From assembly GCF_000423425.1 (NCBI RefSeq), contig NZ_AUHY01000032.1, positions 1 through 32,288 of the forward strand: 32,288 bases of DNA, given 5' to 3'. The DNA is from Meiothermus rufus DSM 22234. Lineage in GTDB: Bacteria; Deinococcota; Deinococci; Deinococcales; Thermaceae. Below, in pieces: positions 158 through 32,288 of the stretch (the first letter of the stretch is position 1; each line of letters begins with the position of its first letter). The position numbers and the translations under genes are program-made. The notes beneath the pieces were generated by a model. The model saw only the letters and a list, made by a program, of their open reading frames with translations. It made no database searches and was not told the origin of the DNA.

Positions 158-433
158 ATGCGCGCCATGATGGACGCAAGTGAAAACAAAGCTAACCGCG
201 CTGGGCATTATATCCTTCAACCCGACACCCGGGCCGCGCTGCCGCCAACGGCCAGCGGGTGAAGGATCGTCTGTTCGACCACTCCATTGTCACTGGCTGG
301 GGATCACCCCTGCTGGCGCCGACAGGAGAATATTGGCTTGCTGCGAGAGATCGTCGGCCATGCCCGCAACCGCCGCTTTCGCTTCGAGCCCTACTTGCGG
401 TTGTTTGAGGATGCAGGGGAGGAGGCTGTATGA
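158..433 (+). pseudogene. Decayed gene of unknown function behind the left IS
   Basis: From ATG 158 frame 2 reads MRAMMDASENKANRAGHYIL and onward to about 240, where it meets a stop at 260-262. A protein-like stretch continues in frame 1 from about 247 (NGQRVKDRLFDHSIVTGWGS). Frame 2 then resumes from about 326 (ENIGLLREIVGHARN, RRFRFEPYLRLFEDAGEEAV) and ends at TGA 431-433. Two compensating frameshifts would join these into one protein of roughly 91 residues. I do not recognise the family. The three parts share a charged, ordered composition unlike the third frame, which is why I read this as a broken gene rather than noise. It lies directly under the 101-145 promoter. Confidence 0.35.
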
Positions 434-16451: not shown

Positions 16452-17600
16452 GTGAAAATCCCTTTTGCAGTGCTTTTTCTCTCTGTTTGCGGTATAGTTC
16501 TGGCCCAGGAAGCCCCCATGAAGCGCCCCGATGCACCCCCCCTGGCTTTGCGCGGCAGCTTTGCGGTGGGGGTTCGAACCCTCTCGCTCGAGCCGGCCAG
16601 CCGCCCCAACCGCACCCTTACCGTTGAGGTCTGGTACCCCACACAGGCCCAAGGCGGCAATGCCCCCATAACCTACAATGCCCAGATAGGCCAGACCCCA
16701 GTGCAGATTCCTGGCCAAGCCCGGCGCGATGCCCCACCAGCCGTAGGCCGCTTTCCCCTGATCGTGGCCTCGCATGGCCAGCCGGGCACCCGCTTTCAGT
16801 TTGCCTACCTGAATGAACACCTGGCCAGTTGGGGGTTCGTGGTGGCCTCGCTCGACCACCCTGGTTCCACCTATCAGACCCTAACCCAGCCGAACTACAT
16901 CAGCAGCATTGTGGATAGGCCCCTGGACATCCTGTTCGCCATAGGTGCGCTGCCCCAGCAGGTGCCCAGCGCCGATGGCCAAAAGGTAGGGTTGCTGGGC
17001 TATAGCTACGGCGGATACAGCGTAATCAATGCGGCGGGCGCGGGGCTGGATGGCGCGGCTTTGGCGGAATACTGCCGGGCCAACAACAACGAGGGCCCCT
17101 GCTTTGCTCTGCCCTTTTTCGCCCAGCTCGAGGCCGTGCGGGGTCTCAGCATGGTTAAGCCCGACCCGCGCATCCAGGCGGTCTTTGCTATGGCTCCCTA
17201 TGGCCAGCCCTGGGTTGGAGCCCGCGCCTTGGCCAACTTGAAGGTGCCCTTGTTTGTGGCCGCAGGCGAGGCCGACGACGTGGCCACCTACCGGCGGGAC
17301 GCCTTGGCCTACTTCCGCCAGGCGGCCTCGAGCCACAAGTACCTCCTGACTTTGCAGGCCGCCCGGCACAACCCCTTTGTGGAATGCCCGCCCCAGGTGC
17401 GCGCCCGGGAAGAGGACTACTGGCGCTGCTGGGAGCCGGTATGGGATATGGAACGGGCCCACGACCTAGTGCGGCACTTTGCCACCGCTTTTTTCGCCCA
17501 CTTTTTGCAGGGCAGCCCCGAGGCGGGAAGGTTCTTGGACCCGGCTCTTCCTGGCTTCAAGCCGCGCACGGCCTTGGGCTTTAGGCTGGAGACGCCTTAG
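16452..17600 (+). CDS. Secreted alpha/beta hydrolase (PAF-acetylhydrolase/dienelactone hydrolase-like)
   Basis: The product is 382 residues. A signal peptide (MKIPFAVLFLSVCGIVLAQ) is followed by an N-terminal strand region ending in TLTVEVWYPT. The hydrolase core has the oxyanion region PLIVASHGQPG, the nucleophile elbow GYSYGG (Ser near 185), an acid candidate in FVAAGEADDVATYR, and a His in AARHNPF. The layout is that of the predicted dienelactone hydrolase / platelet-activating-factor acetylhydrolase group of secreted esterases. The start is GTG 16452 with TAGACT 6 bases before it. The stop overlaps the convergent methyltransferase stop (TTAG, 17597-17600). Confidence 0.8.
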   Translation: MKIPFAVLFLSVCGIVLAQEAPMKRPDAPPLALRGSFAVGVRTLSLEPASRPNRTLTVEVWYPTQAQGGNAPITYNAQIGQTPVQIPGQARRDAPPAVGRFPLIVASHGQPGTRFQFAYLNEHLASWGFVVASLDHPGSTYQTLTQPNYISSIVDRPLDILFAIGALPQQVPSADGQKVGLLGYSYGGYSVINAAGAGLDGAALAEYCRANNNEGPCFALPFFAQLEAVRGLSMVKPDPRIQAVFAMAPYGQPWVGARALANLKVPLFVAAGEADDVATYRRDALAYFRQAASSHKYLLTLQAARHNPFVECPPQVRAREEDYWRCWEPVWDMERAHDLVRHFATAFFAHFLQGSPEAGRFLDPALPGFKPRTALGFRLETP

Positions 17601-19405
17601 CTTTTCTGGCGGCGGGCCCGCAGGTACCGGGCGGCTTCGGCGAGGGATTTGACCTCTTTGGCCGAGAGGCCCAGGTGTTCTTGTAGCAAATGCGTGTCGG
17701 CCAGGCTTTGGGCCTCTTGAACCCGGCCTTGCCGCAGCAGGTGGTCGAGGACCTTGGCCAAGGCCTCGAGGTCGGCCTGGCCCATGTTTACCTTGGGCAG
17801 CACCAGCCGTTCAGCCTCGCTGGGCTCGAGTTTGAGCATACCCCCGCCCAGCGCACGCCCTTCGATCTCGGCGCTGAGCTGGGTCAGCGAGGTCTGGAAA
17901 AGCGCGGCCAGGGCCTTCGGGCTTAGCCGCGCTGTGGCCGAAGGCTGTAGATATACCCCATGCAGGCTGTTAGGGGCCACCGCGCCCAAGGGGTTGGCCA
18001 CCAGCCGGGGGGCTTGGTGGTTCATGTAGGTTAGGAAGGCCTCGGGGGCCTTAGGGCTCAGAGCGTACCAGGGCCGACGTTTGCGGCACTTGTAGGCCAG
18101 GGGCACCCCCTGGGCCTCGCCTTCGCGCAGGTAGCGGGCCAGGGTTGGCGGTGGTTCGGCCTCCTTGGGAATGCACAAGAGATACCCAGCCAGGCTGGCC
18201 ATGCAGGCCTCTTGCCAGTCGGTCTGGGTGAGCCATAGGCCCCGCAGCGCCCCAGCCCGCCACACTGCGGGCCTAAGGAAGGCTTCGGGTATGGCCCAGC
18301 GTTGGGCCTGGGCAGGGCTTAGGTGGAAAAAGGCGTTGTGCCCGGTAACGTAGCCGATGTCTACCCGGGCTACCTGGCCCAGCCGCCAGGAGGCCGCCGC
18401 CAGGCTGCGGTAGAGCTCCCTGGCGAGCCGCACCGTTCCCGGCGCAACGGGGGAGAGCCAGTACGCTGCCAGGCGGGCCTGGCCCGAGACTAGGGCTTTT
18501 AGATCCAGGGCCTGGGCCTTGGGGAACGATCCCCTATCGGGACGGGCTGCGCCCGTGCACCCGGGGGTGGGCCAAAAGGTTTCCAGCTCGGTTGTGTGCG
18601 CCAGCTCCTGCAGCCAGAACACGGCGGGTTCTTCCCCTGGAGACGATCCCCTATCGGGACGGGCTGCGCCCGTGCACCCGGAGGCCCGCCGCCCTTCCGC
18701 CAGCAACAGCAGCACTTCTTGCGATAGGTTGGGAAAGAGCCGCTCACGGCAAGCGATGAGGGTGACTTCGCGGAAGGCGCGGGCCAGGTACTCCAGCACA
18801 GGCCGGGCATAGGCCGCATGGGCCAGCTCGAGCGGTACCACCAGGGCCAGCCGCCCGCCAGGCTCGAGCCAGGCCGCGGCCTGCACTACAAAAGCCGCCC
18901 AGACGCTGGCCCGCCTATCGAGCTGCACCCCCTGCTGCTGGGCCAGGGCCAAAGCCCGCTCCCGCACGGCTTTGTCCAAGCGCTGGTAGCGGATAAATGG
19001 GGGGTTGCCGACCACACAGGAGAGCCGTACAGGCGGCTGAAAATGGAAAAAATCACCCTGGAAAAGGTGCTCTTTGCGGATAGCGAAATGCGTTGCCAGT
19101 ACCCGGACACTTTGCTGGTAGGTGGCGGGGTCGAGTTCTACCCCGAAAACCTGCGCTTCGGGGCTGCCCCCTAGCTGTTGTAGCCGCTCGCTGGCGGCAG
19201 CCAGAAAAACCCCTCCCCCAAAGGCGGGGTCGGCCAGGGTGTCGTGGGGCTTTCGCAGAGCCCAGCGCACCAAAAAGCGGGCCACAGCCGCATCGGTATA
19301 GTAGGCCCCTAGGGTTTTGGCGGCTTCCCCAGTGGGGCTAGGGGGGAGTTGGGCCCAGGGACGTTCGGGCTCGGCTGGTCCCGATAGGGAATCTTCCCAA
19401 GCCAT
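17597..19405 (-). CDS. N6-adenine DNA methyltransferase (TaqI/Eco57I-like), solitary
   Basis: The product is 602 residues. The N-terminus has LGAYYTDAAVARFLVRWAL, typical of this class, then the AdoMet motif I (DPAFGGGVFL, about 59-68) and the catalytic motif NPPF (134-137, GNPPFIRYQRL). The C-terminal half resembles a TaqI-like target-recognition domain (RPWYALSPKAPEAFL, NSLHGVYLQP). It should methylate adenine N6 at a specific DNA site; no restriction enzyme gene lies beside it, so it may be an orphan regulator or half of a lost system. Residues about 242-254 and 281-293 are two copies of one in-frame 39-base repeat encoding GCTGAARPDRGS, probably between the catalytic and recognition domains. 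The first residues (DSLSGP) match part of the same repeat inverted. Confidence 0.85.
   Translation of the reverse strand: MAWEDSLSGPAEPERPWAQLPPSPTGEAAKTLGAYYTDAAVARFLVRWALRKPHDTLADPAFGGGVFLAAASERLQQLGGSPEAQVFGVELDPATYQQSVRVLATHFAIRKEHLFQGDFFHFQPPVRLSCVVGNPPFIRYQRLDKAVRERALALAQQQGVQLDRRASVWAAFVVQAAAWLEPGGRLALVVPLELAHAAYARPVLEYLARAFREVTLIACRERLFPNLSQEVLLLLAEGRRASGCTGAARPDRGSSPGEEPAVFWLQELAHTTELETFWPTPGCTGAARPDRGSFPKAQALDLKALVSGQARLAAYWLSPVAPGTVRLARELYRSLAAASWRLGQVARVDIGYVTGHNAFFHLSPAQAQRWAIPEAFLRPAVWRAGALRGLWLTQTDWQEACMASLAGYLLCIPKEAEPPPTLARYLREGEAQGVPLAYKCRKRRPWYALSPKAPEAFLTYMNHQAPRLVANPLGAVAPNSLHGVYLQPSATARLSPKALAALFQTSLTQLSAEIEGRALGGGMLKLEPSEAERLVLPKVNMGQADLEALAKVLDHLLRQGRVQEAQSLADTHLLQEHLGLSAKEVKSLAEAARYLRARRQKS
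18526..18564 (+). repeat. 39-bp repeat, copy 1, inside the methyltransferase gene
   Basis: This copy begins ACGATCCCCTATCGGGAC, continues GGGCTGCGCCCGTGCACCCG and is identical to copy 2. It contains the perfect hairpin ACGGGC-tgc-GCCCGT. The length is 13 codons and it keeps the gene in frame (minus strand GCTGAARPDRGS). Confidence 0.9.
18643..18681 (+). repeat. 39-bp repeat, copy 2, inside the methyltransferase gene
   Basis: Identical to copy 1 over 39 bases, 117 bases away (exactly 3 x 39, same reading frame). The flanking sequences differ, so this is not a simple local duplication of the whole segment. Confidence 0.9.
19378..19393 (-). repeat. Partial inverted third copy of the 39-bp repeat
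   Basis: GTCCCGATAGGGAATC matches the reverse complement of the first part of the repeat (GATCCCCTATCGGGAC) at 15 of 16 positions. It falls at the very start of the same gene, encoding DSLSG. Being short, it could be coincidence. Confidence 0.4.
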
Positions 19406-29815: not shown

Positions 29816-30778
29816 CTATTCTGCACCCAGCTTTTTAACCCAGTCGATCCAGGCGGGCTGCTTCACAAAGCCCAGGGCCTCGTTGATGGCCAGCATGGCG
29901 CGGTTGCCCACCTCGTTGCCGGTGCGGATTTCCCTGGCCCCGGTGGCTTTGGCCAGCGCAATGGCCCGCAGCTTGAGAGCCAGGGCCAGCCCTTTGCGGC
30001 GGTAGGCCCGGCGGGTTCCGGTAAGGCCGGTGTAGAGGTAGTCACCGTCGGTCTTCCAGAGGGTGCTCATGGCCACGTACTGTCCGCTGCGCTGGTCCAC
30101 CGCTACCAGATAGCCCTCGGGCCAGTAGTACCGGCTGCCGAAGACCCACCGGCAGTAGTCTTCAAAGGGCACCTCGCTGATGGCCTCGGGGCGCGGTACG
30201 TCGAGGCGGGCCTCGAGCCAGAGGTCGTAGGCTTTTTGCCGGTAATCTGGGTCGTCTTCCAGTTCCTTCAGGCTTTTGAGCGCGAACCCGGCGGCCTCTA
30301 CTGCCTCGATTTTTCCGGTGTAGGGAGTAAAATCGAAGCGCTGTACCTCGAGTCTCGACTCCCAGTAGCGCATCTTTTCCACAAAGCCCAGCTTTTTTAG
30401 CCAGACCAGGGCCCGGGCCTGGTCTTCCCGGGTGCTGCACAGAAGGGAGATGGGGTCGTAAGGCGCTAGCGCTTCCATAACCCGCTGGTACAACGCCTTG
30501 CCAATGCCCTGCCCCCGGAACTCCGGGTGCACCGTGATGCCTAGGGCGAACTTCTGCGGGTGGTACATGCCCTCGTGCTGGGTGTACTCGCCCACCCCCA
30601 CAATCCGCTGGTCTACCTCGGCCACAAAGCGTCCCCACCGTATCTCGGGGGCGTGGAGGTCGTTTTCCCGCAGCCGGGCTTCGCTATGCACCTCGTCGGG
30701 CCAGGCCGCGTTGAGCAATTGGGCAATGGCTGGGTAGTCGGTCTCTGCGAAGGGCCGTAAGTTGACCTTGAATGGCAT
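29816..30778 (-). CDS. Double GNAT-domain N-acetyltransferase
   Basis: The product is 320 residues with two GNAT domains. The first has the acetyl-CoA loop FRGQGIGKALYQRVMEAL. The second has RRAYRRKGLALALKLRAIAL followed by GAREIRTGNEVGNRAMLAIN and EALGFV. Tandem GNAT proteins of this type resemble the mycothiol-synthase architecture, but the acceptor substrate is unknown. The ATG has GAGGAAGG a few bases upstream and is 12 bases downstream of a paralogous gene, with which it forms an operon. The tandem pair probably arose by duplication. Confidence 0.87.
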   Translation of the reverse strand: MPFKVNLRPFAETDYPAIAQLLNAAWPDEVHSEARLRENDLHAPEIRWGRFVAEVDQRIVGVGEYTQHEGMYHPQKFALGITVHPEFRGQGIGKALYQRVMEALAPYDPISLLCSTREDQARALVWLKKLGFVEKMRYWESRLEVQRFDFTPYTGKIEAVEAAGFALKSLKELEDDPDYRQKAYDLWLEARLDVPRPEAISEVPFEDYCRWVFGSRYYWPEGYLVAVDQRSGQYVAMSTLWKTDGDYLYTGLTGTRRAYRRKGLALALKLRAIALAKATGAREIRTGNEVGNRAMLAINEALGFVKQPAWIDWVKKLGAE

Positions 30779-30790
30779 ACCTTCCTCGAT

Positions 30791-31735
30791 TCAATGTGGG
30801 CTAGGCACCGGGCTAAGGCGCAGAGCGACCGTGGCCGGCTCTTTTACGAACCCCAGGGCTTCGTTGATGGCCAGCATGGGCCGGTTGGCTTGGTGATTGG
30901 CGGTGCGGATATACCTTGCGCCATGGGCTTTGGCAAAGGCTGCGGCCCGCAGCTTGAGGGCCAGGGCCAGCCCTTTGCGGCGGTGGCTTCGCTTTACCCC
31001 AGTAAGGCCGGTTTGCAAAGTCTGGGGGCGGTGGGATCGGAACAACATGGTCAGGCCCACCATCTCCTGGCCCTCCAGGGCCAAAAAGAACCCCTCTGGG
31101 AGCAGGTTGGGGTCTTCCAGGCTGCGCTTTCGCCAAAGCTCGAAGGGCCAGGGGGTGATGGGCTCACGGGTGGGGACATCCTCCAGTAGCTCTAGCTCGA
31201 GGTGGTACAAAGCCCGCTGAAAGGCCTCCTCCTGCCAGGGGAGGGCAGCGAGGGGCTTCAGGACAATGCCCGGGGGCAGGGGGCGCTGCAGGAGGCCGGG
31301 GTCGAAGCGGGTTAGGTCCAGCACCGACACCCACTTGCGCTCTACCTCGGTAAAGCCCTGGGCCAGTAAAAAGCCAAACTCAGGCCAGTCCTCTCTAACC
31401 TGGGCCTGGAGTTCGCGGGGCTTTAGGGGGGCAACCCGCTCGAGCAAAAATGCCCACAACCGGGTGGCTAGGGCCTGGGCCTGGGGGTGCAGGTGGTAGC
31501 CCACCTCGAGGGCCCCTGGCTTGGGGTTGTGGTAGGGGGTGGCGTACTCCAACATTCCCACCACCTGGCCTTCCTGCTCCACCAGGAAGCGCTTTAGTAC
31601 CTCGTCTGGGGAGCGGGTCTGATCCAGGTGCTTTAGCTGGGCGATGTTCAGGGGGGCCTCGGGGTGGACGGCTTCACGGACACGGGCCAAGGCCCGATAG
31701 TCGGCAGGAGAAAAAGCAAAAGGGCGTATCTTCAC
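30791..31735 (-). CDS. Double GNAT-domain N-acetyltransferase (paralogue, first domain degenerate)
   Basis: The product is about 314 residues from GTG 31735, chosen because AGGAGG lies 5 bases upstream; TTG 31738 is too close to it. The C-terminal GNAT domain is almost the same as in the neighbouring gene: RSHRRKGLALALKLRAAAFA, then ARYIRTANHQANRPMLAINE. The N-terminal domain lacks the Q/R-x-x-G-x-G acetyl-CoA loop (YHLHPQAQALATRLWAFLLE instead), so it is probably structural or binds substrate only. It is the first gene of the pair. Confidence 0.83.
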   Translation of the reverse strand: MKIRPFAFSPADYRALARVREAVHPEAPLNIAQLKHLDQTRSPDEVLKRFLVEQEGQVVGMLEYATPYHNPKPGALEVGYHLHPQAQALATRLWAFLLERVAPLKPRELQAQVREDWPEFGFLLAQGFTEVERKWVSVLDLTRFDPGLLQRPLPPGIVLKPLAALPWQEEAFQRALYHLELELLEDVPTREPITPWPFELWRKRSLEDPNLLPEGFFLALEGQEMVGLTMLFRSHRPQTLQTGLTGVKRSHRRKGLALALKLRAAAFAKAHGARYIRTANHQANRPMLAINEALGFVKEPATVALRLSPVPSPH

Positions 31736-31950: not shown

Positions 31951-32288
31951 TGTAATCGGTCAACACATGTGAGACTGGGGAACCGACTCCTCCTGCATCA
32001 TAGCTAAATACTCCAAGGGAGCAAGACCCCCCAGGGCCACGTGAGGCCTTCGGCGGTTGTAGTGGTCCAGGGAGGCATCCAGCTCTGCCTGTAGCTCGCT
32101 GAGCCGGGGGGGCAGAGGCCGGGTATAGAGCTCCTCCCTAAAGGTCCGTTGCACCCGCTCCACGTGACCATTGAGTTTAGGACTCCTCGGCGGCAGCACA
32201 AACAAGGCAATCCCCAGAGCACAGCAGGCCTCCTCAAACTCGGCCATGAACTCGCTGCCCCCATCCACCTGGATGGCCCGGATGGGAA
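31951..32288 (-). mobile_element. 3' end of insertion sequence, right copy
   Basis: The element ends at TGTAATCGGTCAACA (31951-31965), identical to the left copy's end in inverted orientation. The shared sequence includes the transposase C-terminus. Both copies point their 3' ends into the window. The rest of this copy is beyond the window, so target duplications cannot be checked. Confidence 0.8.
31960..32288 (-). CDS. IS transposase, integrase core (partial, cut by window edge)
   Basis: About 108 residues are visible. The second catalytic Asp lies in IQVDGGSEFMAEFEE, and the catalytic Glu in LPPRSPKLNGHVERVQRTFR. The end YNRRRPHVALGGLAPLEYLA is typical of IS481/IS3-type DDE transposases. 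The N-terminal helix-turn-helix part lies outside the window. The frame is intact as far as seen, so this copy could be active. Its TGA overlaps the terminal inverted repeat. Confidence 0.88.
   Translation of the reverse strand, partial: PIRAIQVDGGSEFMAEFEEACCALGIALFVLPPRSPKLNGHVERVQRTFREELYTRPLPPRLSELQAELDASLDHYNRRRPHVALGGLAPLEYLAMMQEESVPQSHMC

Follow-up and report, generated by a model that had tools for sequence, protein, structure and literature searches.

A family of short, probably mobile hairpin units inserted in frame in genes of Meiothermus and two neighbouring Thermaceae genera

How does a gene come to carry the same small hairpin twice, in one and the same reading frame? The question is posed by a DNA methyltransferase gene of Meiothermus rufus DSM 22234, lying on a stretch of 32,288 nucleotides that was analysed at its full length (the window). 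Two direct repeats of 42 nt (18526-18567 and 18643-18684; identity 41/42) start 117 nt apart, fall in one frame of the methyltransferase ORF and are each read as GCTGAARPDRGS. Chance origin of this repeat is excluded, because its 25-nt core has two matches in the window as compared with 0 expected from 100 shuffles. The original prediction had described two 39-base copies, each with the hairpin ACGGGC-TGC-GCCCGT, and had likened them to the small palindromic elements that insert into Rickettsia genes; repeat, spacing, frame and hairpin all hold for both copies, but the putative mobile unit is 42 bp long (a 38-nt core plus 4), not 39. The partial inverted match claimed at the gene start is likewise there (33 nt, 79%), and is a weak copy of the same family, called by the covariance model R1 at 19377-19397 (-) with E=0.008; the conserved 5' arm is intact in it, its hairpin has decayed, and its gene-strand sequence is AGATTCCCTATCGGGAC. 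Elsewhere in the window, a 95-nt inverted repeat (98% complementary) lies near both contig ends, at 1-95 and 31951-32045, possibly as two IS fragments at an assembly break, and a 159-nt direct repeat (79% identical; 29845-30003 and 30826-30984, 981 nt apart) probably represents paralogous coding segments.

Table 1. The methyltransferase gene, its element copies and units at IS200/IS605-type loci (window positions, unless a locus or residues are named)
Feature	Position	Strand	Remarks
Eco57I-type N6-adenine DNA methyltransferase	17597..19405	(-)	602 aa ORF; NPPF intact, residues 134-137
Element copy 1, 38-nt core	18524..18561, repeat match to 18567	(+), antisense to gene	R1 E=5e-11
Copy 1 peptide	residues ~280-294		PGCTGAARPDRGSF; residues 279-293 pLDDT<50
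Copy 1 variable stem-loop	18542..18556	(+)	ACGGGC 18542-18547, loop TGC, GCCCGT 18551-18556; family covariation
Element copy 2, 38-nt core	18641..18678, repeat match to 18684	(+), antisense to gene	R1 E=4e-10
Copy 2 peptide	residues ~241-255		SGCTGAARPDRGSS; residues 244-257 pLDDT<50
Copy 2 variable stem-loop	18659..18673	(+)	ACGGGC 18659-18664, loop TGC, GCCCGT 18668-18673
Degenerate third copy	19360..19397	(-), sense to gene	N-terminal residues EDSLSGPAEPE, cf. DDPLSGRAAPVH of other copies
Units in IS200/IS605-type loci	L293 1936-1970, 3076-3113; L284 1936-1970, 3036-3073; L295 2972-3009; L281 1449-1486		

Are the two segments insertions, and where in the protein do they lie? The ORF matches the Pfam models N6_Mtase, Eco57I and M_Eco57I_C by HMM, and orthologues in 13 genomes of the same genus are 50-60% identical to it. 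In an alignment of the 14 sequences the NPPF catalytic motif is invariant, both repeat segments are missing from all 13 same-genus orthologues, and the part that separates them aligns without disturbance. Two separate insertions in the METHYLTRANSFERASE follow from this, and the alignment with relatives bears out the proposal that the segments are inserted. An AlphaFold2 model of the methyltransferase (14-sequence input, mean pLDDT 79.6) contains only five stretches of at least three residues with pLDDT below 50, namely residues 1-34, 244-257, 279-293, 321-323 and 439-448, and three of these five fall on the degenerate copy at the N-terminus and on the two inserts. Both inserts are therefore placed by the model in predicted-disordered loops, in agreement with the loop location that had been suggested for them. 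A PDB sequence search with the methyltransferase as query gave no match. The protein also has an extra 7-residue insertion, VAPGTVR (window about 18431-18457), which is present in 0/13 orthologues and is not derived from the element.

The exact 36-mer occurs in the 2.74-Mb genome of M. rufus only at the two methyltransferase copies, so that the refuting condition named in the original prediction, a 39-mer present only here, holds to the letter for the exact sequence; it fails when the hairpin sequence is allowed to vary, whereupon the family became visible and eight copies were found in this genome at E<=0.01, the degenerate one at the gene start being the weakest. R1, the covariance model behind these counts, was built from an alignment of 26 hand-picked units. 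The unit consensus runs from GGACGATCCCCTDTCGGG, an 18-nt conserved arm, through AC-variable stem-loop-GT to NCACC; the core measures 38 or 44 nt, the inserted block is the core plus 4 (42 or 48 bp), and the unit, which ends in GGACG and CACC, has no terminal inverted repeats. The arms of the stem change together between copies. When covariation was retested on units defined by their flanks only, which yielded 45 distinct 11-nt inserts, Watson-Crick pairing stood at 91% versus 67.5 +/- 2.0% with the arms shuffled (z 11.6), and the four inner pairs were all standard in 38/45 inserts, with 12 different left arms; longer stems also exist, in inserts of 12-18 nt. Rfam 15 covariance models gave no relevant match in six array or copy loci. 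Units also form head-to-tail arrays of 2-6. At one locus of sister genus g2 (L034 1490-1700, G002:C4), intergenic mosaic arrays hold several hairpin types, with a different palindrome, CCCCGCCTACCGGCGGCGAAGGAAGCG, inserted into one unit and TACGCCATACGCAAAACGC-like repeats adjoining.

How widely is the unit distributed? Its conserved 5' half recurs in Meiothermus and two sister genera, a reversed-pattern control matching far fewer. Seven other Meiothermus genomes have 8-42 copies by R1, and a further ten have 0-17; R1 also finds 45 and 153 in the genomes of g2 (which we take to be the M. silvanus lineage), 58 and 39 in those of g3, and none in eight genomes of g4 (presumably Thermus) and g5; the family is missing from two Meiothermus genomes (G010 and G011). 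Across the Deinococcota, 20/111 genomes and 3/31 genera match R1 at E<=0.001, and the other genera have no match. When 84,980 species were scanned for the exact gapped pattern, 47 stretches came up, all from Meiothermus or Calidithermus, and a match in IMG/VR (L277), at the edge of a phage-like contig, is probably a chance match under a looser pattern. In the open-licence literature we found no earlier description of Meiothermus repeats, of the unit sequence or of the peptide.

What does the unit do to a gene in which it lands? To find empty sites, the sequences on either side of in-gene copies were spliced together with the core left out, and 18 Meiothermus genomes were searched for the products. 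The matches were then aligned, the host genes being named by HMM (purC by sequence). The net insertion is 42 bp in nuoL, hpaB, mfd, an IS701 transposase gene and a DUF1156 gene, 48 bp in purC, a subtilase gene, pgm and a 1185-codon open frame, and 39 bp in thyA, so that its length is divisible by three in 10/10 empty-site comparisons. With a block length divisible by three, and with 5-6 of the 6 frames through the unit free of stops, a gene is lengthened by 13-16 residues and not disrupted. The IS701 transposase gene has the unit in both G016 copies and lacks it in 6/6 G017 copies. A decayed copy in thyA is common to G005 and G017, from which it follows that old inserts persist in frame; exactly the 13 residues of the thyA insert are missing from a solved thymidylate synthase. 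In the recJ gene of M. rufus (L100 906-2897, C12:38776) the unit sits between the OB and C-terminal domains; recJ of G020 (L128) has a unit at another position. A XerC/D-like recombinase (L102 2077-3081, from M. rufus contig C74; also L119 and L150) carries two units, one forming the start-codon context and one just before VVGKGDKERLVPL, in the same places in G000, G016 and G007. Such related units across genome and genus, inside and outside genes and with empty sites in relatives, answer to the Rickettsia-like elements that the original prediction had envisaged in Thermaceae genes. Sorting of 90 sites with a home-made codon score placed 23 unambiguously within one coding frame on both sides, 31 in non-coding sequence and 33 in an ambiguous group, with 3 frame-shifted; since the methyltransferase and purC sit in the ambiguous group, in-gene use is undercounted. 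Array periods are divisible by three in 31/38 cases in long open frames versus 10/24 elsewhere (p=0.002).

Several other origins for the segments can be weighed against these data. A local duplication or gene conversion confined to the methyltransferase would fit the presence of the exact 36-mer at these two genome sites alone and the identity of the two 36-nt cores, yet the stretch separating the copies can be aligned with orthologues in which both are missing, and other sites in the genome hold units with different hairpins; as a full explanation local duplication is already refuted by the genome-wide family, and we consider such a confined event extremely unlikely. Gene conversion may have homogenised the methyltransferase pair. 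The inference drawn earlier, that DNA identity implies recent insertion or gene conversion, was not demonstrated: identity of the pair alone does not imply either, because copies in another genome show just one difference from it across the 36-nt core. Might the segments be a conserved functional peptide motif rather than a DNA element, given that the same peptide appears twice in the methyltransferase? We regard this as the faintest of prospects, for a selected peptide is ruled out by the reading of copies in either orientation and in at least four frames, giving such unrelated peptides as DDPLSGRAAPVH, GRSPLGTGSASAP, TIPCRDGQSPCT, LGEQARQGSVPIGD and the methyltransferase one; moreover, about a third of the sites are non-coding, and the orthologues exist without the segments. 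The fixed insertion length and weakly repeated flanks could also be those of excision scars left by a larger transposon with this sequence at its ends, but scars would show neither compensating stem changes nor arrays of 2-6 units, and no larger element with such ends was seen in the loci examined, all of which makes this origin very improbable. Finally, integron attC sites, DNA-uptake sequences and CRISPR were set aside on general grounds, the units showing no conserved integrase-type core, a density far below that of uptake sequences and no spacers.

Could the units belong to the known GTAG- or CGTC-tagged REP superfamilies, moved by a RAYT/Y1 tyrosine transposase? REP elements are 20-40 bp stem-loops with stem variants and with intragenic copies, including in repair genes (PMC3733652), and the Thermaceae unit resembles them in size, hairpin, variable stems and repetition through the genome, as well as in its occurrence within genes and its preference for those of repair. 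Additionally, Y1_Tnp (HUH) genes occur in 15 of the 22 genomes that were searched, and the 1.5 kb on either side of 30 Y1_Tnp matches contain 12 strong copies, about 19-fold above expectation from the genome average by our own estimate. Against this reading, REPs have an unpaired GTAG/CGTC tag at the 5' stem base, while the unit has no GTAG tag, no 5' CGTC tag and a conserved, one-sided 18-nt arm; REPs are mostly head-head or tail-tail dimers, while the units are predominantly head-to-tail; and G016 (2 contigs, 18 copies) and G020 (24 copies) carry the unit with no Y1_Tnp match. None of the copies examined near Y1_Tnp is at an IS end; they occupy tnpA/tnpB frames or, next to these, the ORF of an IS701-type transposase, whereas in REPs of the GTAG type a linked RAYT is flanked by the repeats. 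Membership of the REP superfamilies seems unlikely to us. Y1_Tnp itself is a doubtful candidate for the mobiliser: units are enriched near it, but by presence and absence it is not required, and the copies examined near it lie within ORFs. IS200/IS605-type elements repeatedly carry units: tnpB has them close to its start and in its C-terminal tail (in two IS types), and tnpA has them at its end (Table 1). The tail of tnpB often overlaps the omega-RNA region.

How, then, does the family stand beside other described repeats? The RPEs of Rickettsia and WPEs of Wolbachia are small hairpin repeats found in frame in unrelated, often conserved genes and also between genes, with frames open through the element (PMC2229807, PMC10969869), and the Thermaceae units likewise lie in frame within unrelated conserved genes. 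RPEs, however, are 105-146 bp long, have terminal inverted repeats and belong to Alphaproteobacteria, whereas the Thermaceae unit has 42 or 48 bp, a one-sided conserved arm, a variable stem and arrays. Enterobacterial ERIC/RU and the Correia MITEs of Neisseria are miniature repeats that are fused to ORFs and can be in frame (PMC2229807), but they exceed 100 bp and have terminal inverted repeats, neither of which is true of the Thermaceae family; a classical MITE, derived from a DDE transposase, also has such repeats, along with a target-site duplication. The main text of PMC3733652, on REPs, does not mention Thermaceae. Because the length and inverted repeats of RPEs and the GTAG/CGTC tag are absent, we file the family with neither. 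Its architecture differs from those systems that could be compared, the RPEs being set apart by their published description. Judged by sequence, this is a real new family of miniature intragenic elements, which would work like Rickettsia palindromic elements and intragenic REPs.

We conclude that the segments are very probably miniature mobile elements, non-coding and non-autonomous, whose range is limited to Meiothermus and two neighbouring genera of the Thermaceae. The unit inserts in blocks of 42 or 48 bp and also multiplies in head-to-tail arrays. In the mechanism that we propose, a trans-acting enzyme would move it as a folded single strand, as in the REP/RAYT case, the stem could change by hairpin-templated repair, and copies landing in surface loops would survive selection. 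A free inner stem combined with a constant arm, a closing AC/GT pair and a CACC tail suggests that it is the folded strand that is recognised. Left and right flanking hexamers agree at 58% versus 47% by chance (shuffled; z 6), exact target duplication being rare at single sites; this agreement and the net length of core plus 4 suggest a short target repeat, albeit at sites that are imperfect and with some apparent singles that may adjoin missed units. More tentatively, and with doubt outweighing confidence, one might think of a distinct class of miniature element, in which a non-RAYT enzyme knows the folded strand by its constant arm and AC/GT pair, the inner stem is free, and fixed blocks of 14 or 16 codons write loops into the housekeeping proteins of a clade.

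Selfish palindromes that keep the reading frame are known from textbooks as a curiosity of the Rickettsiales. The Thermaceae family provides a second, probably unrelated and smaller example, in free-living bacteria, whose hosts also include essential genes and whose unit lengths, divisible by three, leave these genes working. For annotation, the inserts account for odd loops of 13-16 residues in proteins of Meiothermus and Calidithermus. Closely related genomes offer empty and filled sites in thyA, purC, nuoL, mfd, recJ and smc, and these sites permit tests of how the element moves, of the quantisation of its length and of the neutrality of the peptides that it adds.
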